NCBI GenBank assembly: GCA_003218375.1
Contig: QHNH01000012.1
Coordinates: 124,001-188,000, forward strand
Origin: Verrucomicrobiota bacterium
GTDB lineage: Bacteria > Verrucomicrobiota > Verrucomicrobiia > Chthoniobacterales > UBA10450
Direction: 5' to 3'
DNA: 64,000 nt
Both the position numbers and the translations under genes were made by a program. Positions 22,271-32,832 of the stretch are shown piece by piece. The notes under the pieces are model-generated. The model searched no databases. It saw nothing but the letters and a program-made list of their open reading frames with translations, and was not told the DNA's origin. Position 1 is the first letter of the stretch, and each line of letters opens with the position of its first letter.

Positions 22271-23425
22271 TTACATGCCAAGAGCCGTTCGCAAATGCGG
22301 AACGAGACGTTTCGTGAATTCCACGGAGTCGCCGGCGGATAGATGGGACCATTCAGGGCAATTGAATCCCGACAGCTCGGGAAAATCTGAATAGTAAATT
22401 CCCGGCGCACCTGTGCTGTTGATCAGGGGATCCCAGGTCTTGGCGCGCGGCGATAAACGATCTTCCAGGTTCTTTAGCTCGCCGCTGTGCGGAAAACGAA
22501 CAAAGACAATCTTGCCGCCGCGGGCCCGAAGCTTGTTGACCGCGGCCACAGTGTCGCGAAATCGCGCTTCGACGGCCTTGCCCATCTGTTCCATGAAAAT
22601 TTCTCTCGGCACAAAGCTCGGTGGCGGCGGTGGAGTAAAGAGCGGCAGCCAGATTTGCCGGATTCTGGTCTGCAGCTCGCCGGGCTGCGCACAGTTTTCC
22701 GTCATGCGCATGCGGCGTTCATGGTCCACGGTTTGAAAATCGGGCGGGAAAGTCGGAGGCACCTGCGCATTCGGGCGATTCGGGATAGGCAATTTCGCGA
22801 GAAGCCTCTCCAAAGTAAGATCTTCTTGTTTAAGAAAGGCGATATGTTCTTCCAGGAACATGCCCAGGTGATGACTTGCGCGCTGGGCGACCGTCTGGGT
22901 GCGGTAACGCTTGAGAGCTTTCTCGGATGTCTCCAGGAGCGGGCCGCCGGGCATGAAGAACATCCCGGGGACGATGCTGCAAATCACGGTGCCATGAAAT
23001 TTGTCGTCGTTGATCAGGTCGGCGAGGACGGGATAGGCGCAGCTGCCGGCCAGCGCGATCTGGATCGGCCGTTTCCCGAGTCCTTTCTCCAACTCATCCA
23101 AGTCCAGGTCGAAGAGCGGCCGAGAGTCTCCTACTATAACTAGTGACTCCGGCTGAACCCGGCGGCGGACTTGCGTCCAAAGGTCTTCGGTGTCGTTCAG
23201 AGTAGGTGTGTAACCGACCGAGCGCACATGGAGTTCCCAGGCGAAGGTTGCGGCCCAGACAATCAAGACTGCGATCACCGTCATTCCGCGCCAGGGTAAG
23301 GCCGGGATCGGTCGCTCGAATTCAAGGGGTGGCCCGCCGTGCACACTTTCTGCCGGTGTCGGCTTCCGGAAGAACAAGCGCGGCAGCCGCAGGATGCGTT
23401 TAAAATTGGAAGTAGATGAAGGCAT
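22271..23425 (-). CDS. AlgJ/SGNH-like membrane-anchored protein paired with MBOAT
   Basis: A 384-residue protein with one N-terminal membrane helix (about 50-67) and a large extracytoplasmic domain. LVIVGDSRPLFDLDLDELEK (about 95-114) gives the GDS block expected of SGNH hydrolases, and HLSAGDSVEF near the C-terminus could provide the DxxH-like catalytic end. It overlaps the MBOAT gene by 26 bp. AlgI-type MBOAT acyltransferases usually have an SGNH partner of the AlgJ/X kind that moves the acyl group onto a secreted polysaccharide. Substrate polymer is unknown. Confidence 0.75.
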   Translation of the reverse strand: MPSSTSNFKRILRLPRLFFRKPTPAESVHGGPPLEFERPIPALPWRGMTVIAVLIVWAATFAWELHVRSVGYTPTLNDTEDLWTQVRRRVQPESLVIVGDSRPLFDLDLDELEKGLGKRPIQIALAGSCAYPVLADLINDDKFHGTVICSIVPGMFFMPGGPLLETSEKALKRYRTQTVAQRASHHLGMFLEEHIAFLKQEDLTLERLLAKLPIPNRPNAQVPPTFPPDFQTVDHERRMRMTENCAQPGELQTRIRQIWLPLFTPPPPPSFVPREIFMEQMGKAVEARFRDTVAAVNKLRARGGKIVFVRFPHSGELKNLEDRLSPRAKTWDPLINSTGAPGIYYSDFPELSGFNCPEWSHLSAGDSVEFTKRLVPHLRTALGM

Positions 23426-24821
23426 TGCTGCTTCCCTGAGTAAGAATGATGGCGCAGGCCATCAGGGCCCAGGCGCCGGTGACCGTCCAGCGCGGCAGGC
23501 GGGTGACGGCTGTTTCGATGTTGCTATCCCGGAGGAGTGTGTGCACCAGGAGCATGGAGAGAGTTACAATCGCCACCTGCAACATTTCGCGCGTGGAAAG
23601 GATGGCGTCACCGCTGGCGTGCCGGCCGAACATTCCGCTTAACATGCGCGAAGCTAAGGCGAAATCGGAGGCACGGAAAAAGACCCAGGCGATGCAAACC
23701 GCCGCGTAGGTGGCCACCCCGGCGAGAAAACGGATGCCGAAGTTATTCGCCCACGCCTTCTCTTCGAAGAAAATCCGAAGCACGCGCTCGATGACGAGGT
23801 AGGAGCCGTGGAGTAATCCCCACACGACAAAGGTCCAGGCAGCGCCATGCCAGAGGCCGCCGAGAAACATTACGATTACCAGGTTGAGCGCGACCCGGAA
23901 AGGGCGGACCTGGTTGCCACCGAGCGGAATGTAGAGGTAGTCGCGCAGGAACGTAGAAAGCGAGATGTGCCAGCGCCGCCAAAAATCGGAAAACCCGATG
24001 GCCGCGTAGGGGAAACGGAAATTATCCTTGAGATGAAACCCAAGACACAAGGCCGCGCCGATTGCGCAAATGGAATAGCCGGCAAAATCGAAGAAGATCT
24101 GACCGGCGAACGCGATGACGCCGAGCCAGCTATCGAGCGCAATTAAAGGTCCCGGATAAGTGAAGGTCCGGTCGGCTGCGCCGGAGAGCATCGTATCCGC
24201 GAGCACTATCTTCTCGAACAAGCCCAGAGTCATGAGAAGCACTCCCCAAAGGAACTGGCCCACACGCAAACCGGGCGCGCGAACCAGTTGAGGCAGAAAA
24301 TCTCCCGCGCGCACAATGGGTCCCGCGACGAGCTGGGGGAAGAAGGAAACCGCGAGGACGAAATCGCGGAGCGACTTTGTCGGCTGGAGGACACCGCGAT
24401 AAATGTCGAGCGTGTAAGAGAGCGAGTGAAAGGTGTAGAACGAAATGCCTACCGGCAGAAGGATGTCGAGATGTGGCGGCTGGTAAATGATGCCAAGGCG
24501 CGCCATGAACCACTGGAAGTTCTCCAGGAGAAAATTCCCATACTTGAAGAATCCGAGCATGCTCAAGTTCATGGCTACGCTGCCGACGAGCCACAGCTTC
24601 CGCGAACGCCGTCCCTGCGCCCGGGCGATGCGTGCCCCGAGCCAGTAGTCCATCGCCGTCGTCGAGAAAAGCAGCGCCGCGAACGGCGGATTCCAGGCCC
24701 CGTAGAAAATGTAGCTGGCGGTCACCAGCAGATTTTTCCGCGCGTTCCAGGAGCGAATGCTCCAGTAGAGCGTGACGACCACGGCGAAGAAAACGACGAA
24801 CGTGAGCGAATTGAACAGCAT
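23400..24821 (-). CDS. MBOAT family O-acyltransferase (AlgI-like)
   Basis: A 473-residue polytopic membrane protein. The AlgI/DltB-type core is clear: DFWRRWHISLSTFLRDYLYI (about 272-291), then PLGGNQ, and the catalytic region MFLGGLWHGAAWTFVVWGLL (about 310-329) whose His is the conserved active-site residue of MBOATs. The N-terminal VSFFPQLVAGPIVRAGDFLP is also typical. These enzymes take acyl groups across the membrane to acetylate exopolysaccharides. It is the first gene of an operon with the AlgJ-like protein (26-bp overlap). No polysaccharide biosynthesis genes are in the window. Confidence 0.93.
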   Translation of the reverse strand: MLFNSLTFVVFFAVVVTLYWSIRSWNARKNLLVTASYIFYGAWNPPFAALLFSTTAMDYWLGARIARAQGRRSRKLWLVGSVAMNLSMLGFFKYGNFLLENFQWFMARLGIIYQPPHLDILLPVGISFYTFHSLSYTLDIYRGVLQPTKSLRDFVLAVSFFPQLVAGPIVRAGDFLPQLVRAPGLRVGQFLWGVLLMTLGLFEKIVLADTMLSGAADRTFTYPGPLIALDSWLGVIAFAGQIFFDFAGYSICAIGAALCLGFHLKDNFRFPYAAIGFSDFWRRWHISLSTFLRDYLYIPLGGNQVRPFRVALNLVIVMFLGGLWHGAAWTFVVWGLLHGSYLVIERVLRIFFEEKAWANNFGIRFLAGVATYAAVCIAWVFFRASDFALASRMLSGMFGRHASGDAILSTREMLQVAIVTLSMLLVHTLLRDSNIETAVTRLPRWTVTGAWALMACAIILTQGSSNAFIYFQF

Positions 24822-24849: not shown

Positions 24850-25373
24850 GCGGCCTCGGCAAGCCCGATCTGGCGAAAAATCATTTCCTACCGATCACCG
24901 CGATCCAGCAAATGATAAACCGCTCCCGGGGAACTCGTCACCCGTTACATGTCACTCGTCACTGGCTTCGAAAATGTCGAGATTCACAGACTGAGCCCTT
25001 CTGCTGTCTTCATTCGACATTGGGCGTTCGACGTTGGGCGTTGGGCGTTTTCTTCTGCCCTCTCCTGTAGCCGCCTCGCTGCGTCGAGGCGTCGGCCTGC
25101 CGCGCTCATCCCATTGGAGCGCGCCGGTGCCGGCGCCGATCTGCCCACTCCGCCCACCTTGCCTGGGCCTGTGACTGCTGGCGGCTCCCGTGCAATCTTC
25201 CGGCACATAGCGGGTGCCGGTCACGTTGCTGACTCGCTTCGTAGTTATCCCGTGGCTGAAAGAGGCCTTGAGCGGGAAGCGTGGTTGACGAGGACAGCCG
25301 ATGGAGTGGGTGGACCTTTGGTTGCAACGCCTGGTTGATAAGAGCTTCGCACGGTCATGCGTTGGTTGCCTCA
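24850..25373. other. Intergenic region without a confident gene
   Basis: No frame here looks protein-like. It contains short tandem-like text near 25016-25052 (repeats of TTGGGCGTT/TTCGACG) and a half copy of the CTGTAGCCGC repeat family (25063-25091). The right part lies directly downstream of the orphan RHS fragment and could be a decayed variable RHS tail, but nothing supports a product. Confidence 0.5.
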
Positions 25374-26222
25374 TTAGTCGTAGTAGTGGTAGGCCAGCAG
25401 GCCAGTAGTAGAATTATAGCTCTGCACGATTTCATCCACTCGCGCGCCATTGATGTAGAACCGCGTCGGAGTCCACGGGCTGGTTCCTTCCTGCACCAGG
25501 TTCCAGCCGTCGTAATAAAAATAGGTCGCTGTCCCGCTGTCGGCGCTCGGACCGATCACGCGTTTTACGCACCGGCCCAAAGGATCGTACCCAAACCCCA
25601 TCCAGTTGCCCGTCACCCAGGTGGCAAAGCTCCCAATTGCCACCGGTTGATTTAAAGCGTTATAGCTGGCCACGATCCAACCATCCGCCATTGTCACTCC
25701 GTTGCCAGGGAAACTCGTGTGTGGCGCCCAAGGGCTGTTATCATCGTAAAAAATCCCCGAGCCCCAATGCCCGGGCGGATTGGGCTGATTGTTCTCCCAA
25801 CTACTGTATTGGTTGAGCCCGTTGTCGCGCCGCGCGAAATTCATCCAGCCGCGATTGGCCAGCCAGTCCCAACCGAACCGGTTCCCCAGGGCGTCATAGG
25901 AGAAGTGATCTTCCCGGACGTAACTGTGAGGGTTCATCGCCGGATCAATCGCTCCGTAGTCGGCGTCGGTCAATTGCCCTTCCGCGTCGTACCAATAATG
26001 ATCCCCCCGGCCGTCCTCCATCGGATTGGTGGGGTTGCCGCTCCCTTTCTGGAAGGAGGTGATCCGGTCGCGTTCATCGCGAGCGTAAGTGCGTAGCGCA
26101 TAACTCTCGAACAGCGTGGCTCGCTGATGATGCACCACCTGCGTCATCCCACGTGCATCGTGGGCGAACGCGGTCACCACTCCATTGCCATAGGTCTGAT
26201 GCTCCGCTTTCCCGTATTCCAT
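25374..26222 (-). pseudogene. Orphan RHS repeat fragment
   Basis: A 282-residue piece strongly similar to part of the intact RHS protein at 27019-31797: DERDRITSFQKGSGN, DGRGDHYWYDAEGQL, RFYINGARVDEI. Its last residues YHYYD sit exactly where the intact protein continues into ASGHC and its RHS-associated core, but here two stops follow. It therefore lacks the core and any toxin domain and has no signal peptide. It is probably a duplicated, truncated RHS block, as found next to RHS loci where tails are exchanged. The first residues after the ATG are poorly matched and the start is arbitrary. Upstream (about 26225-26255) is a short GGGGTCAGAGCTTACTATTG motif on the minus strand, like one often seen beside mobile-element scars. 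Confidence 0.75.
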
Positions 26223-26305: not shown

Positions 26306-27010
26306 CTACTTCTTGCGTCCGCTAGTTGATGCAACTCGTGCGAGCAGGTTCGATGTGTTTTTCTTGATCTTACGCGTGAGTTCCGCACGTTTTGGAGCGG
26401 GTGCATCGCAGTAGTCCAGCAACGAAGCCGCGATGCTGATTAACGCCTTTGTGTTGTGTCTTCGAGATGTCGCGCTTTCGCCTTCCAAAACGATGCCGCT
26501 CGAGTTCGTAGCCGAAAAAATTTCACTACTGCTGTCCACGACGATTTCATTGGATTTCTGCTGCGGTCGCGACCGTGACAACATGGTCAGCCAGACCTTG
26601 TGCAGTGCGAGCGCGGTCGCCTCGGCTATGGGAGCATCACATCTTTCAACGCGTATGGTTTGCGGATCGACGCGATCTTCGGGGCCCGGTGCAACGCAGT
26701 TCCAAAGTCGCTCAGACGCTTGCGTCACCGTTACCCAATAATCACCGGGAAGAGAATTTTCTTTCCCGGGGGCTTTGTAAACCGATATTGCAGTTTCCAC
26801 ACCGACGGTCCCAGGTAAACTGACGAACCTTGCAGTTTCTCCAGGAGTAAGCAGCAGCTTCCGTTGCCAAAGTTCCTGATAAGCAGCACTTGAGCCGACC
26901 ACTTCCTCTACCGGGACCAAATGATCTTCATCTGGCCGAGATGCGCGGCATTCCAGTGATATAACCACACAGAGTGCGAGGACTATTTGCGTCACGAACG
27001 ATGGTGTCAT
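26306..27010 (-). CDS. Exported protein directly downstream of RHS, candidate immunity or partner protein
   Basis: A 234-residue protein of no recognised family. A signal peptide is likely (about 1-22, ALCVVISLECRA; the Cys could also be a lipoprotein Cys). The middle has SLPGTVGVETAISVYKAP and DYWVTVTQASERLWNC; the C-terminus is Lys/Arg-rich. It starts 8 bp after the RHS stop, the position where RHS-toxin immunity proteins are encoded. That role is inference; a periplasmic immunity protein would imply the RHS tail acts outside the cytoplasm. The codon pattern looks less GC-biased than the RHS gene, as tail-module genes often do. Confidence 0.65.
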   Translation of the reverse strand: MTPSFVTQIVLALCVVISLECRASRPDEDHLVPVEEVVGSSAAYQELWQRKLLLTPGETARFVSLPGTVGVETAISVYKAPGKENSLPGDYWVTVTQASERLWNCVAPGPEDRVDPQTIRVERCDAPIAEATALALHKVWLTMLSRSRPQQKSNEIVVDSSSEIFSATNSSGIVLEGESATSRRHNTKALISIAASLLDYCDAPAPKRAELTRKIKKNTSNLLARVASTSGRKK

Positions 27011-27018
27011 GATTGCGG

Positions 27019-30000
27019 TTACGGCGACACAGGCCTTATTGTGGGTTCATCTCGATAATCCACTTGTGGTGTCAGTCGCAATATCTGGCTTGGATTCGAT
27101 TCGTTCACTTTGTAGACCGGAATACCCGGTTCTGTCTTCGAACCTCTAGCTGAGCCGTAGTCGGCTCGGGTAAAGTTCGGATCTGCTTTGCCAGTCTTGT
27201 CCATGTGAGCGTGGCCGACTCCCACCGGTTTATGCCCCGGGTCGACAGGCGCTCTTTCTTCTTGCGTGGTAATAGTTTGGAGCCGTCCCCCTATCATTCT
27301 TTTTTCCGTCGTCGTGGAACCTTTGGCGATTTTACTACCTAGCGACCGTTTCCCATCTTTTTCTTGCACCGCTTGTGATCTGCCAGTGTGGTCGCCCGCG
27401 TCTTTAGCTGCCTTCAAGGAATTTTGGGACGCTTCAATGCCTTTCTTGTCCAGGTCTTTGTCGATGTCTCTATCGATCAGCCCGAAAGGGTCGCTTCGGT
27501 TAACCGGATCATTGTGGCAATAACGATACAGGTTGTAGTCTCCTGCTCCAAACTCTTTCGGGTCGGGCTGGAGGAAGCGGCCTAGCTCGGGCTGATACAT
27601 CCGGTTCCGGTAGTCGTAGAGGCGCAGCTCGCTCAGCCACTCTCTTCCGGTAAACAGAAAGCGATTTCCGTGTGGCGAATAACCCAGCCAGTTGCCCGAC
27701 CCATTGTAGAAATACGGGTAGCCAAAGGCGTCATAGTAGTATTGCTCCATGATGTTGCCATTCAAATCGGTCAAAAGCGTGCAATGCCCCGACGCGTCGT
27801 AGTAATGGTAGGCCAGCACGCCTGTGGCAGAATTATAGCTCTGCGCGATTTCATCCACTCGCGCGCCATTGATGTAGAACCGCGTCGGACTCCACGGGCT
27901 GTAGCCTTCCTGGACCAGGTTCCATCCGTCATAGACGAAGTACATCGGCGCGCTCGGCGCTGAGCCGTCCCCCTGCGCATACCAGCGTTTCACGCATCGT
28001 CCCAGCGGATCGTAGCCCAACCACAGGAAAGCGCCACCTGAGTTGCTCGCGCTCCAGATCAATTTCGGCTGGTTCAGCGCGTTGTATCCCGCCGTGATCC
28101 AGCCGTCCTGCATGAGCACCCCATTGGCCGCGCCTGGCGTCCCCCACGGCAGCCCGAGATCGTCATCGTGATTGATGATCGAATAGTTCCACCACGCCCG
28201 ATACTGGTTTAGGCCATTGTCCTTCCGGGCAAAGTTCAACCAGCCCTTGCTTGTCACCAGGTTCCACCCAAGCCGGTTCCCCAGCTCGTCGTAGGGGAAA
28301 TAATCGACCCGCACCGGATTATTGGGATTGTTCACCGGGTCGATGGCGCCGTAGTAGGCGTCGGTCAATTGGCCTTCGGCATCGTACCAATAATGGTCGC
28401 CGCGCCCATCCTCCATCGGATTGACGGGGTTTCCGCTCCCTTTCTGGAAGGAGGTGATCCGGTCGCGTTCATCGCGGTAATAGTTGCGGCGGGTGAACTC
28501 TTGCCCGGACGACGGACTAAAATTGTGCACCTGACTGGTGAAACCGCGTCCATCGTAACCAAACAGGGTTTGGATGCCAGACCCGTGGTTTTTGTAATTT
28601 AGTTTGCCATCCGCCAGATAATGGTACTCGACGGGCACGTTCCAACTGTTGCCCCAGTTCTGGTAGATCCGCTCGAGCTGCCCTCTGGCGTTGTAATCGT
28701 GGCGGACCCAGATGCCATTCGGATATTGCATGTGAGAGACGTTGCCGTCGGGATAACGCAGGTAATTGACGTGAGTGTAGTTCCCGGAGCCGACGATCGT
28801 GGTCCCTTCGTACTTTGGCTGTCCCGCATCATCGTACTGGTAATCGAGGCTAGCGACGGAGTTGGAGATCGCACTGAGGCGGTTGGCATTGTCCCAGGTG
28901 CGGCTGATCCCCGGCGTATCGTCACTCCAGGTATGGCTTACCTCGCGGCCGCGCGGATCGTAAGTAATGGTCTTGACCTGGCCCTTGCGCGTCTTCCAGG
29001 TCTTGAGCTGGCCAAATTCATAACTGCTCGCTTCGTCACTCCCATCGGGGAAAATTACTCGCGTCGGCCGCCCCATGGGGTCGGACCAAAACACGGTGGG
29101 CTGATCTTCAATCCCACCCGCATCCTTGCTGCGGTGGGTCGTCACCGTGCAAAGCTTCTTCATCGGGCCCCAGCAATAACCTAGGTTCGTGGTGTTGCCG
29201 CGCTCATCGATGAAGCGGCCGGGTTGGCCGAAGGCATCGTAGTCCAGCCATTGCTGGCTGCGTTGGCCAGCGGCTTCTACCGGGAAGTTCATCCGGGTCT
29301 TGTTGCCGACATAGTCGTAAAGCGTTTCGGTCGTCCGGGGCACGGTGTTAACCGTTTCGTTCGTCTTCCAAGGGCGGTTGCGCAGGTCGTAATCGTAAGT
29401 GGTGATGCGGTTCAGCGGGTCGGTGTAACTGCTTTTCTGTCCGTTCTGGTCGTAAGTGAAGTAGTGGGTTTCGATATCCGGTCCGGCAAACCAGTAACCG
29501 GTCGGCGCGTTGCAGGGTTGGACCCAACCGGCCTGTTCGAGCACAACCCTGTTTTGCAGGTCGTGCCAGCGCGCCGTCACTCGCCGCTCGCAGGCTCCAT
29601 TGTATATCGGCTCAATCTGCACCCGCCATTCATTCTTGGTGTGGCTCGAAGCGTCGCGCAAGCCGATCCCATCGATGTAACGATCGTAGATCCAATCCCA
29701 GCGGCGCGAAGGAACGTTCGCCCCGCCGTTCCAATCCGGAGCATTCAGCGGTTCCGTATAAGAGAGGCAGCGACGGTAGTCGTCATACTCGTACGAGCTG
29801 GGATGACCAAGTTCATCTGTGATCGACGTGCAGTTCCCGTTACCATCGTAGCCATAGCGCACAATCGGGTTATCCGGCGCGTTATTCATCCCCGCATATT
29901 CCACCGTAAGAATCTGATGACGCCCGTTGTAGGTCATTCGCGTGCTAAAATCCTTCCACGCGCTCCGGGACCGCCCGTCCGAGACTCTCCAGACGCGATC

Positions 30001-31797
30001 GAGACTGTCGTAGGTGTATTCCTTCCGGGCGTCCCAGCCATCGATCGAATTGGACTCGCGCTGGAGAAGGCCACGGGCATCGTAAAAGTAAGTGACAACC
30101 GCGCCGCTGGGCAGAGTGTGGCTGGTGACCTGGTTAAAGTTATTGTAGGCGAAAATTTCCGCGCTCCCATCCGGGTAATCGATTCGCGCGACGCGCCGCC
30201 GAGAATCCCGTGTGTAAATCGTAGTCTGATTCCGTTCGTCCGTGTGACTAAAGAGCCAATGATTGAAAGGATTGTGGATCAGGAGTGGGTCTCGTGCCTC
30301 CGAGTTGCCGGCGTTAGTGCGGTCATAATAGCTGGCGCTGCCATCTGCTCCGGTGTGGTGGATTTCAGTCGGCTGCCCGCTCCCATCCGCATAAACAAAC
30401 CGGCTGTGAATATTGCGCCCATCCCACACATCGCTGGGCTCGTTGCCGCCCCGTTGGCGCTCAAAAGGAGGGTTCGGAGAGTTGGTAAAATCGGTCAGCC
30501 TGACTAACTGATAGCCCGCGCTGTTTACCTCCGTTGACTGGGTGGAGCGGCCAAAGTTAAAAAAGCGCCAGGCGCCGAATCCGCTGGTTTCCGAGCGCGT
30601 CCCGGTAAAACAACCGATGACGAAACTGGAGACAGTGATTCCAGTGTCGCCGCTTTTTTCCGCACTAATCGCGCTCTCCGGGGCGAGATAATAATCGAAT
30701 TTAGCACCTTCGTAGGCCTCCGGCGGGTGGTCCTGGATTTGGCAGGCGCTTCCGCGGTAGGTATAGCGGATCTTCGTCATGGCTCCGGCATAGTGTGGGT
30801 CTTGAGCGACCTTGAGCAAGGGAACGGCTGAATCGTTCGTGCTACAGGGGTAGTCTCCGTAACAATTGGCATAGGTATAAACCGCCTGCGCGCCTTCCGG
30901 GTAATCCACGGTGCTCAGCGTCAACCAAACCGCGCCCGGAATATCGGGGTATTGATAGATAACCGTTTGTGAGCCACCAGACCCACCGTTGCTCACGCTG
31001 TGGATGGCCCACCCGAGGTTCCCGTAGCTGCTCCACTCAATGTTCAGAGACCGGCCGCCGTCCTGTGTCACCGTCCTGAGGTGACCGTTGCCATCGTAAT
31101 CAAGTTGCGTGCGCAGGCCGTGGGGGTCAAAGACCTCAGTGGCATAATAAACCGATGGGCCATTGATGAAATGGACCGCGCCGCCATCGGCCAGATCGAG
31201 CCAGAACTGCGAGCCATCCGGCGCCATGTCTCTTAGTAAATCGTGCACCGACCCGCCAATGAGAAATCCGTTTTGCTCCGCGGCTGTGTAGGGCGGGCCG
31301 TATTGCCAGGGGGTGAACTGTCCTACGTGTCCTTGGTTGGAACGGGTGATTTTATATCTGTTGGCGTGACCGTCTGGAAAAGTGATCGTTATTGCAGTAG
31401 TGAAGATTTCTTCACTGTTGTCGTCCATCGGGTCTATCTTTTCGCTTGTATCCTCTTCGTAGGCATACCAACCCCAGGAATGGGACCAGCCGGAGAAGCC
31501 AAAGTCGGTCGGTAGCTGCGCGTAGGGATTGTCATGGTCGTTGGGAATTGAGTTCCAGTAGCGGGTAAAATCCAGACCGTAGACCCCCAGCGCCCCCGGA
31601 ACATGGAGATCGTTGACGATGCGAGTGGCATTGCCACTGTGAGCATCGTACGAAGCGCCAGTAGTAACCTGCGCTTTGAGCGCTCCAGTATTTCCCTCAG
31701 GATTCTCATCCGGTGTGGCGGCGGGTGTCTGCGCTACGACCGAACCGGCGCCGAGACCAACGAGACAAATACCAGCAAGAAAAAGCAGCTTCTTCAT
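27019..31797 (-). CDS. Secreted RHS repeat protein with RHS-associated core and variable C-terminal domain
   Basis: A 1592-residue protein. A signal peptide (about 1-22) precedes a DUF6531-like start (YDAHSGNATRIVNDLHVPGA), then dozens of YD/RHS repeats (for example YDSLDRVWRVSD and YDPRGREVSHTW). The RHS-associated core ends in LGRFLQPDPKEFGAGDYNLY and DPFGL (about 1425-1455). The last roughly 135 residues are the variable tail, with GVGHAHMDKTG and TRADYGSA: an HxH followed by T-x-x-D resembles a JAB/MPN metal-binding motif or the DUF4329 tail. Repeats form a shell that encloses the released tail. The ATG overlaps the upstream Pro-rich gene's stop (ATGA), so translation is coupled. The tail's activity is a guess. 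Confidence 0.9.
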   Translation of the reverse strand: MKKLLFLAGICLVGLGAGSVVAQTPAATPDENPEGNTGALKAQVTTGASYDAHSGNATRIVNDLHVPGALGVYGLDFTRYWNSIPNDHDNPYAQLPTDFGFSGWSHSWGWYAYEEDTSEKIDPMDDNSEEIFTTAITITFPDGHANRYKITRSNQGHVGQFTPWQYGPPYTAAEQNGFLIGGSVHDLLRDMAPDGSQFWLDLADGGAVHFINGPSVYYATEVFDPHGLRTQLDYDGNGHLRTVTQDGGRSLNIEWSSYGNLGWAIHSVSNGGSGGSQTVIYQYPDIPGAVWLTLSTVDYPEGAQAVYTYANCYGDYPCSTNDSAVPLLKVAQDPHYAGAMTKIRYTYRGSACQIQDHPPEAYEGAKFDYYLAPESAISAEKSGDTGITVSSFVIGCFTGTRSETSGFGAWRFFNFGRSTQSTEVNSAGYQLVRLTDFTNSPNPPFERQRGGNEPSDVWDGRNIHSRFVYADGSGQPTEIHHTGADGSASYYDRTNAGNSEARDPLLIHNPFNHWLFSHTDERNQTTIYTRDSRRRVARIDYPDGSAEIFAYNNFNQVTSHTLPSGAVVTYFYDARGLLQRESNSIDGWDARKEYTYDSLDRVWRVSDGRSRSAWKDFSTRMTYNGRHQILTVEYAGMNNAPDNPIVRYGYDGNGNCTSITDELGHPSSYEYDDYRRCLSYTEPLNAPDWNGGANVPSRRWDWIYDRYIDGIGLRDASSHTKNEWRVQIEPIYNGACERRVTARWHDLQNRVVLEQAGWVQPCNAPTGYWFAGPDIETHYFTYDQNGQKSSYTDPLNRITTYDYDLRNRPWKTNETVNTVPRTTETLYDYVGNKTRMNFPVEAAGQRSQQWLDYDAFGQPGRFIDERGNTTNLGYCWGPMKKLCTVTTHRSKDAGGIEDQPTVFWSDPMGRPTRVIFPDGSDEASSYEFGQLKTWKTRKGQVKTITYDPRGREVSHTWSDDTPGISRTWDNANRLSAISNSVASLDYQYDDAGQPKYEGTTIVGSGNYTHVNYLRYPDGNVSHMQYPNGIWVRHDYNARGQLERIYQNWGNSWNVPVEYHYLADGKLNYKNHGSGIQTLFGYDGRGFTSQVHNFSPSSGQEFTRRNYYRDERDRITSFQKGSGNPVNPMEDGRGDHYWYDAEGQLTDAYYGAIDPVNNPNNPVRVDYFPYDELGNRLGWNLVTSKGWLNFARKDNGLNQYRAWWNYSIINHDDDLGLPWGTPGAANGVLMQDGWITAGYNALNQPKLIWSASNSGGAFLWLGYDPLGRCVKRWYAQGDGSAPSAPMYFVYDGWNLVQEGYSPWSPTRFYINGARVDEIAQSYNSATGVLAYHYYDASGHCTLLTDLNGNIMEQYYYDAFGYPYFYNGSGNWLGYSPHGNRFLFTGREWLSELRLYDYRNRMYQPELGRFLQPDPKEFGAGDYNLYRYCHNDPVNRSDPFGLIDRDIDKDLDKKGIEASQNSLKAAKDAGDHTGRSQAVQEKDGKRSLGSKIAKGSTTTEKRMIGGRLQTITTQEERAPVDPGHKPVGVGHAHMDKTGKADPNFTRADYGSARGSKTEPGIPVYKVNESNPSQILRLTPQVDYRDEPTIRPVSP

Positions 31798-32486
31798 CGC
31801 GCGCCCGCCGCGGTTGCGTTTTCGTTCGCCTGCACCTTTGCCAGAGAATTACGCGACAAGGGCAGCGTCGTCATCAGCCCGCCACAGTGGAAGGTTAGAT
31901 GAGCCCGCGGCGCATTCTCCAGCAGGCGCACCGTCACCACGCATTCTCCGGTCGGCCGGACCTGCAAAACTTCCGTAGGTGGATCGAGAATGGCGCCTTT
32001 ACCCGGTCTCACGACAACCGTTTTGCCCCGAGCCAGCGGATCGAATTGCAGCCGCACCATGACCGGCTGGTTATCGGCGATAAAGGCAGGCGCGACATAT
32101 CTGCCATGGCGCAATGGCACCTGAGGCGATAGCGCGCCCGCGCGCCAGACTTCCACGATAGGAGTCAAGCGCTGGATTTCGGCGGCGGAGGGTGCTGAAG
32201 AAGGTTGCGCCAGAAGCGGAAGCGGCGGCGGCGGCAAGATCAGCGCAGGGTTAGGCGCCGGGGGCACCGGCGGCGGCGACACTGCCGGCGGGGCGCTCCC
32301 GGTCGGTTGAACTGCCGGAACCGGCGGCACCGATGGGGGCGGTAACGGTGGCGGAGTACTATTCGAAACGGGGGGAAGGGTTGGGTTGGGATTCGGAAGC
32401 GGCGGCGCCTGCCCTTGCAATGAATCGTTCGATGCCGTCAAAACGCTGACGCACCATACCAGGCAGAGGAACCTGCGAGGGGACAT
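31794..32486 (-). CDS. Secreted Pro-rich protein translationally coupled to RHS
   Basis: A 230-residue exported protein: signal peptide (about 1-25), about 85 residues of Pro-rich low-complexity linker, and a C-terminal domain (about 105-230) with RHGRYVAPAFIADNQPVMVR, LDPPTEVLQVRPTGE and HCGGLMTTLPLSRNS. No known family is recognised. Its stop overlaps the RHS start by four bases (ATGA). A long Pro linker followed by a beta-rich domain suits a cell-envelope protein that presents or anchors the RHS polypeptide; this is inference. The 21-bp repeat array begins about 50 bp upstream. Confidence 0.78.
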   Translation of the reverse strand: MSPRRFLCLVWCVSVLTASNDSLQGQAPPLPNPNPTLPPVSNSTPPPLPPPSVPPVPAVQPTGSAPPAVSPPPVPPAPNPALILPPPPLPLLAQPSSAPSAAEIQRLTPIVEVWRAGALSPQVPLRHGRYVAPAFIADNQPVMVRLQFDPLARGKTVVVRPGKGAILDPPTEVLQVRPTGECVVTVRLLENAPRAHLTFHCGGLMTTLPLSRNSLAKVQANENATAAGAR

Positions 32487-32538: not shown

Positions 32539-32832
32539 GAGCGCTGCTTCGCGACCGTTAAAGCGTCTCGGTTTGGCTGCAAACAGAGTCGCTTTTTCCT
32601 AAGAGCGATTTGCTTCGATCTCGAACGGACTTGCTTTGACGCAAAAGCGGCTCGCTTTGACCACAAACAGACTTGCTTTGCCTGCAAGCAGAGTCGGTTT
32701 TTTCTAAAACCGAGTTGCTTTGACCTCGACACGACTTGCTTTGACGACAAACAGAGTCGTCTTACCTCCAAAGCGAGCTGCTATCCGAGTAAAGCGTCCT
32801 GCTTTTAGGGAAAACAGAGTTGCTGGCACGGA
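32539..32832. repeat. Array of about fourteen degenerate 21-bp direct repeats
   Basis: Units of exactly 21 bp follow each other without spacers. Clear units start at 32560, 32581, 32602, 32623, 32644, 32665, 32686, 32707, 32728, 32749, 32770, 32791 and 32812, with a weaker one at 32539. Approximate consensus: AAACAGAGTTGCTTTGACCTC, the most constant part being GCTTTGAC. Similarity decays toward both ends. It lies upstream of the Pro-rich/RHS operon (start 32486). The spacing is two helical turns, so each core falls on the same DNA face. On the minus strand it reads as a heptapeptide repeat with SKQ, which is a by-product. Confidence 0.9.

Follow-up and report, generated by a model that had tools for sequence, protein, structure and literature searches.

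The locus described here raises the question of the route by which RHS proteins exported through Sec reach other cells when their Gram-negative producers have no T6SS. It lies in a window of 64,000 nucleotides, the whole stretch of DNA that was analysed, and encodes a proline-rich exported protein, an RHS protein and a 234-residue exported protein, here called the partner. We consider it rather probable that this is a Sec-exported RHS polymorphic toxin locus with a JAB/DUF4329-like tail that would act in the envelope and be neutralised by the exported partner.

Gene order and the constant part of the locus

The three open reading frames of the initial annotation were recovered in place, all on the minus strand (Table 1), and both junctions can be read directly: the stop of the proline-rich gene and the start of the RHS gene share 4 nt (CGCG-ATGA-AGAAG), and 8 nt separate the RHS stop from the partner start (GTCGCCG-TAA-CCGCAATC-ATG). 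The RHS protein matches RHS_repeat (PF05593, E=8.5e-25, 6 stretches) and Rhs_assc_core (TIGR03696, E=2.4e-18), and thus has the RHS/YD repeats followed by an RHS-associated core toward the C-terminus that characterise RHS polymorphic toxins. Its N-terminus, MKKLLFLAGICLVGLGAGSVVA-Q, resembles a signal peptide, as annotated; signal peptides were judged throughout by eye and with a simple hydrophobicity score. The annotated absence of VgrG and PAAR genes nearby also held for the ten neighbours scanned (MBOAT, response regulator, TonB, M13 peptidase etc.), and the sheath protein VipB, the sole genome-wide T6SS marker used, had no match in the genome, which is 98% complete. The locus shares an RHS core, swapped toxin tips and displaced tips downstream with T6SS PAAR-Rhs effectors, but it has a Sec-type signal instead of the PAAR/VgrG link and, as judged from VipB, the T6SS in the genome that define such effectors. 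Scans of the locus with Rfam and with PADLOC gave no match. Just beyond the partner gene lie two elements that had been overlooked, a tail-less RHS fragment, 60% identical to RHS residues 1064-1334 and ending before the tail, and a 357-bp repeat that recurs at nearly full length (97%) only behind two further RHS loci of this genome.

Table 1. Features of the RHS locus in window coordinates; residues of the tail are numbered from position 27480.
Feature	Position	Strand	Remarks
Pro-rich exported protein	31794..32486	-	230 aa; ATGA shared with RHS start
RHS protein, 1592 aa, signal-peptide-like N-terminus	27019..31797	-	RHS_repeat and core profile matches
RHS signal-peptide-like N-terminus	about 31732-31797	-	by eye and hydrophobicity heuristic
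RHS-associated core domain, aa 1367-1440	27478..27699	-	TIGR03696; ends RSDPFGL, boundary to variable tail
Variable C-terminal tail, 153 aa, candidate toxin domain (JAB/DUF4329-like)	27019..27480	-	unique in own genome; homologue in G159
Glu75 of tail, putative catalytic Glu	27256..27258	-	conserved ~15 residues before HxH
H-A-H motif of tail (H90, H92)	27205..27213	-	both His invariant vs L031
T-R-A-D motif of tail (T104-R-A-D107)	27160..27171	-	S-R-D-D in L031; D107 invariant
Exported 234-aa partner, predicted immunity protein	26306..27010	-	unique in genome; 8 homologues; polyimmunity fusion
Partner signal-peptide-like N-terminus	about 26942-27010	-	by eye and hydrophobicity heuristic
Displaced RHS fragment, 282 aa	25374..26222	-	sequence comparison with window RHS
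357-bp repeat, end of locus	25004..25360	not assigned	copies elsewhere in genome

The proline-rich protein consists of a signal peptide, a stretch of ~80 residues with 41% proline and a conserved C-terminal domain of ~120 residues, and it matches no family searched. Its family counts 10 members, most of which precede RHS genes whose tails differ. In the close subfamily the ATGA overlap with the RHS start recurs at every locus with a readable junction (8/8), the tails of these eight loci differ, and this recurrence is more than chance. Since the gene is constant across tails, it is not part of the tail cassette, and we dropped it as a member. The proposed coupled three-gene unit is thus sound as to layout but not as an equal partnership: the proline-rich gene is a constant of the platform, whereas the tail and the downstream gene form the variable cassette. 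A small exported protein that is translationally coupled to the RHS gene and independent of the tail makes a concrete candidate for the delivery component that is missing.

The variable tail and its downstream partner

The tail is unique within its own genome and, by sequence comparison, matches no family searched, Pfam and NCBIfam included. It contains the HAH and T-x-x-D residues noted initially, as HAH-x11-TRAD. A homologue with 36% identity (E=3e-21) occurs at locus L031 of genome G159, which belongs to another taxonomic family, and a tail profile run against 387 genomes of the phylum matched only the own genome (G000) and G159. Scans of viral_contigs found no relatives. A weak tail match was also seen in G053 (L025/L032). 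The initial assignment to a JAB/MPN or DUF4329 metal site is only suggestive: the motif is conserved, and hhalign places it in register with DUF4329 (P=1.6e-4, Prob 50%, to be read against a tail with no family match and an unusable fold prediction), but neither PF14220 (DUF4329, Tox-JAB-2) nor PF15659 (Tox-JAB-1 / Toxin-JAB1; E<=5, also searched in G000) matches. The structure prediction proposed as a check was run with AlphaFold on two sequences and gave no usable fold (pLDDT 48). Tail and DUF4329 have in common H-x-H, [ST]xxD and a following G-x-P-x-Y; the N-terminal E-[YH]-C/G-G block of DUF4329 is absent from the tail.

The partner begins with MTPSFVTQIVLALCVVISLECRAS, which resembles a signal peptide. 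It occurs once among the 13 RHS cores of its genome and is absent at the other RHS loci; it is therefore not a general RHS companion, and that candidate role was dropped. The homologous loci show that the downstream gene is not kept regardless of the tail, the case that the initial annotation had named as a refutation: a clear homologue stands behind only 3/31 RHS cores of the genus (one as a fusion domain), plus a remote one behind an HxH tail. Altogether eight homologues were found. In other genomes homologues of tail and partner (30-46% protein identity) are adjacent and in the same order, which on sequence evidence is more than chance. At L031 the related tail is followed by an about 40%-identical partner and preceded by a gene of the proline-rich type. 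Partner homologues also lie directly behind the RHS genes of L026, L027 and L029, whose tails show no demonstrable homology to the window tail (hhalign P 0.06-0.26), the one of L027 being without the first His. A remote homologue in G026 (L065/L091; hmmsearch E=3.6e-5, hhalign E=1.1e-7) follows an HxH/TPLD tail, that of L065 likewise without demonstrated homology to the window tail. The motif HxH..[STE]xxD is present in 5/6 partner-linked tails vs 2/25 others (Fisher p=7e-4) and the strict [ST] form annotated initially in 4/6 vs 2/25 (p=0.006), both comparisons being partly post hoc. Matches at L030 (G025:C112), L043, L037 and L038 were judged spurious or fragmentary.

Three homologues (L040, L041, L042) are orphans without a neighbouring RHS gene. 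Moreover, G022 encodes a 555-residue polyimmunity protein in which residues 193-375 are the partner domain and residues 379-527 another exported RHS-immunity domain, known as the exported protein behind C80-like tails in two genomes (tails 50%, partners 40% identical). Like the polyimmunity proteins and loci described previously (PMC3482391) it joins at least two immunity domains, but it has a signal-peptide-like N-terminus. Two hallmarks of RHS polymorphic toxins are thus present: a tail-specific gene lies directly downstream, and the paralogues share a conserved core while their C-terminal tails are exchanged. Co-occurrence with the tail, absence at other RHS loci, the orphans and the fusion agree with the predicted exported immunity factor of the initial annotation, and the downstream gene most likely makes the matching antidote to the tail. 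The partner has no Pfam/NCBIfam match and no canonical lipobox by eye, gave chance matches only in a profile search against PDB, and was not modelled usably by AlphaFold (three sequences, pLDDT 43); the putative immunity family matches no family searched.

Site of action and alternative explanations

In the genus 31 RHS cores were counted, most of them bearing tails unrelated to one another, and displaced tips are also present. Partners are exported for a sibling M15 peptidase tail (PF13539, E=1.5e-9) and for the C80-like tails, whereas the partner of a GIY-YIG-looking nuclease tail (87 residues) has no signal peptide. This fits a compartment rule, and the paralogue set allows testing whether the location of an immunity protein predicts the compartment of its toxin. 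Since the antidote is itself exported, the tail may attack the envelope of neighbouring bacteria, an envelope site being the natural reading of an exported partner. The constant proline-rich protein and RHS shell are translated as a coupled pair. We assume that the shell would carry its tail over the outer membrane, onto the cell surface or beyond it, and hand it on to a cell nearby. Probably set free behind the DPFGL end of the core, the tail would act in the target's envelope as a JAB/DUF4329-like metallohydrolase, while the partner would sit in the producer's periplasm and neutralise it there. The bacterial envelope is free of ubiquitin, and the system offers a test of what a JAB-like domain does there.

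The theme of a Tox-JAB with an exported Imm65 was described in 2012 by Zhang et al. (PMC3482391), who proposed that Tox-JAB is nuclease-like and acts in the cytoplasm. Transferred to the present locus, a cytoplasmic tail would be paired with an exported partner that keeps the toxin from being taken up or from passing the envelope and does not inhibit the enzyme at its target. The same study argues that JAB domains of toxins may act as nucleases, and its Imm65, the immunity protein of Tox-JAB-1, is a lipoprotein despite the nuclease function proposed; the sibling loci speak against such a reading of the present locus, with an unexported partner for the GIY-YIG-like tail and an exported one for the peptidoglycan-peptidase tail, and we regard a cytoplasmic site as unlikely. 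Tox-JAB-1/Imm65 resembles our locus in its signal-peptide RHS protein, C-terminal HxH...S/T..D JAB-like tail and exported downstream protein, at our locus a predicted immunity factor. However, Imm65 is described as a Bacteroidetes lipoprotein with a YxC motif, whereas the window partner has neither a canonical lipobox by eye nor a Pfam match, and the Toxin-JAB1 model misses the tail. For Tox-JAB-2/DUF4329 the immunity is listed as Imm-NTF2 family 2 (PMC3482391).

The partner's export, its tail specificity and its translation immediately behind the RHS gene would also suit a chaperone for export, or a processing factor, dedicated to this tail, which appears quite improbable because orphan copies and a fusion with the partner of another tail fit immunity. 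We give similarly little credence to an adhesin, or a surface protein of the teneurin type, whose variable tips serve recognition instead of killing and whose partner is a structural cap: the RHS signal peptide and the absence of a secretion apparatus at the locus would suit it, but sibling M15 peptidase and C80/zincin-like tails have dedicated partners, polyimmunity occurs, and excerpts of PMC13018210 report toxic C-termini and downstream immunity genes for bacterial teneurin-like proteins themselves. A remnant whose tail or partner no longer functions and is retained by chance seems most improbable; the adjoining displaced RHS fragment and repeats do show recombination, and expression cannot be read from a genome sequence alone, but the three reading frames are intact, and motif and partner are conserved against a different family.

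According to those excerpts, the teneurin-like proteins are also exported RHS/YD shells with a variable C-terminal toxin and a downstream immunity gene, and one of their C-terminal domains is toxic only with a signal peptide; they mention no ATGA-coupled proline-rich upstream gene, and the likeness is drawn at the level of the genes. Compared with our preferred reading of an envelope-acting tail with an exported antidote, a wider one is put forward tentatively and with less than even confidence: the locus may represent an RHS weapon platform of three genes that is specific to the lineage and does without a contractile injection system, in which a constant ATGA-coupled exported proline-rich protein (possibly a surface or outer-membrane delivery factor) is combined with interchangeable tails and with immunity genes that follow a compartment code (exported for wall or envelope enzymes, cytoplasmic where the tail is a nuclease); a JAB-like envelope toxin and an exported immunity family, both new, would belong to it.

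The RHS locus and its partner gene

As proposed in the initial annotation, three ORFs adjoin on the minus strand, with an ATGA junction between the Pro-rich and RHS genes and a gap of 8 nt between the RHS gene and its downstream partner, and the N-termini agree with the exported character ascribed to all three proteins. Nothing unusual stands among the neighbouring genes, which include MBOAT, TonB, response regulator and M13 peptidase genes. A search of the window's genome for VipB, the sheath protein of T6SS, found none. Repeat ORFs resembling the tandem repeat upstream of the Pro-rich gene occur at two other RHS loci, ahead of L013 and behind L029 (G019).

Features of the RHS locus and its surroundings (window coordinates)
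Feature	Position	Strand	Remarks
21-bp tandem repeat	32610-32755		imperfect, 7 copies; upstream of Pro-rich gene
Pro-rich protein, 230 aa	31794-32486	-	ORF; signal-peptide-like start
RHS protein, 1592 aa	27019-31797	-	ORF; signal-peptide-like start; RHS repeats and RHS-associated core by curated models
Partner, 234 aa	26306-27010	-	ORF; signal-peptide-like start
Tail-less RHS fragment	25374-26222	-	60% identical to RHS residues 1064-1334; just behind partner
357-bp repeat	25004-25360	n/a	beyond RHS fragment
MBOAT acyltransferase gene	23400-24821		directly downstream of RHS locus

The partner is present once in the window's genome, at one of its 13 RHS cores. Homologues were found in 5 of 83 genomes of the family; a sample of 387 genomes of the phylum yielded three further genomes, G159 (two copies), G424 and G458. 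In four loci (L026, L027, L029, L031) the homologue directly follows an RHS gene. L031 lies in G159, which belongs to another taxonomic family of the same order. Its tail, the variable C-terminus of the RHS protein, shares 36% identity with that of the window (E=3e-21), and its partner about 40%. The downstream gene varies with the tail and travels with a related one, as expected if it encodes the suspected immunity factor. A remote homologue in G026 (hmmsearch E=3.6e-5 among 1731 ORFs; hhalign E=1.1e-7) sits after a displaced RHS tip whose tail has HYH...TPLD, and three orphans (L040, L041, L042) have no adjoining RHS gene. Behind a zincin-like (HESGH) RHS tail, L028:482-2149 (G022:C6) encodes an exported protein of 555 residues that comprises an N-terminal domain without assignment, a domain matching the window partner (residues 193-375, 33%, E=1e-21) and a Sel1-like immunity domain matching the exported protein behind C80-like tails (residues 379-527, 53%, E=3e-54); it is a polyimmunity protein. 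We read the partner as an immunity protein because its orphans, tail-specificity and polyimmunity fusion fit the marks of such proteins (PMC3482391). Judged from these sequence comparisons, tail and partner very probably form a toxin-immunity pair. In L041 (G424:C168) the orphan stands beside small genes, one of which encodes an exported putative metallopeptidase of HELFH type; this may be an immunity island.

Nature of the tail

Between the tails of the window and L031, H90-x-H92 and D107 do not vary; position 104 is Ser or Thr, and Glu75 precedes HxH by about 15 residues. The motif HxH..[STE]xxD is found in 5 of the 6 partner-linked tails and in 2 of the other 25 (Fisher p=7e-4; both the extension to E and the tail set were chosen post hoc); the strict [ST] form occurs in 4 of 6 versus 2 of 25 (p=0.006, set chosen after looking). 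A two-sequence profile of the window and L031 tails matched genuine DUF4329 tails of the same phylum with P=1.6e-4 (Prob 50%), the HxH, SxxD and G-x-P-x-Y motifs falling in register. As single sequences, the window tail gave P 0.038 and the L031 tail 0.009, compared with P 0.02-0.55 for seven decoy tails. L031 apart, homology of the partner-linked tails to the window tail is not demonstrable; those of L027 and L029 are related to one another (E=6e-5). The conserved HxH and [ST]xxD residues and the in-register match are suggestive of the JAB/DUF4329-like metal site proposed initially. Tail, partner and Pro-rich protein have no match in Pfam or NCBIfam. Since the profile match is of this strength, AlphaFold of tail and partner was uninformative and homology is limited to L031, we call the tail JAB-like and do not claim JAB membership; it may well be a metal-dependent JAB-like hydrolase.

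Sec-exported RHS polymorphic toxins, Tox-JAB tails and, for one of these, the exported immunity protein Imm65 have been described (PMC3482391). As far as the libraries were searched, four things are new: the tail family, the family of exported immunity proteins, the polyimmunity fusion in an exported protein, and the Pro-rich gene, which is constant and coupled by ATGA; a limited literature search found nothing on the last of these.

Compartments and proposed mechanism

Of the 31 RHS cores in the genus (8 genomes), G026 has 11; three genomes have none. Thirty tails, read along with the genes behind them, are mostly unrelated to one another. By a simple hydrophobicity heuristic, the protein encoded directly behind is an exported or membrane protein in about 20 loci and lacks such a segment in 5; in 6 none could be named. 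A displaced tip in the window's genome (L011:3941-5062, G000:C42) has an M15/VanY-type peptidoglycan peptidase tail (PF13539, E=1.5e-9, above cut-off) and its own exported downstream protein of 195 residues. C80-like cysteine-peptidase tails in L011 and L055 (PF11713 weak, E=0.028) are 50% identical, and the exported proteins behind them 40%. By contrast, the tail of L067, GIY-YIG-looking by eye, precedes an 87-residue protein without signal peptide. From this difference, which concerns few cases, we assume that the window tail probably acts in the envelope. In the same phylum, the RHS tails of L079, L081 and L085 are DUF4329 tails, genuine or borderline, and they too have signal-peptide-like proteins downstream; exported immunity may thus be common for JAB-type tails.

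A Pro-rich C-terminal-domain profile found ten members in the loci read; nine stand ahead of RHS genes whose tails vary, and the tenth lies at the edge of its sequence stretch. Pro-rich stop and RHS ATG overlap as ATGA in the eight closest cases with a readable junction (window, L028, L091, L094, L092, L011, L096, L013), and a spacing of 2 to 34 nt separates them in a second subfamily (L015, L016, L026, L093) and in L031. The family's recurrence upstream of varying tails, with ATGA recurring, makes the Pro-rich gene part of the platform; its product may help to expose the RHS shell on the surface or to bring it through the outer membrane.

Coupling, gene order, tail-partner co-occurrence, absence elsewhere and polyimmunity are the observations behind the following model. 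The RHS shell would be exported by Sec and presented on the surface together with the Pro-rich protein. The tail would be freed after the DPFGL core end, and release at this point is known for other RHS effectors. It would then act in the envelope of a neighbouring cell, the producer presumably being protected by the exported partner, which would neutralise the tail. A precedent is BiTLP-CTD, an RHS tip with signal-dependent toxicity (PMC13018210).

Turnover and chromosomal position

The RHS fragment behind the partner stops before the core/tail boundary and contains one 138-bp stretch of 91% identity at the DNA level. The only near-full-length copies of the 357-bp repeat in the genome (97%; C47:140024-140378 and C1:44360-44682) lie at the 3' ends of two other RHS loci, L016, which has a displaced RHS tip at its end as well, and L013, which ends in a short RHS-like remnant; about 28 further matches represent a short dispersed repeat of 30-50 bp. 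The 357-bp repeat is a possible recombination boundary of RHS cassettes, that is, tails with the genes behind them. Cassette insertion by core recombination is known for Rhs loci, and the fragment and repeats agree with it. An MBOAT gene 74% identical to that of the window directly follows the RHS locus in a second genus (L029:6799-8220); the chromosomal position is conserved and the tail has diverged. As the RHS-partner pair of G019 precedes the same gene, the position of the locus is older than the tail sequences.
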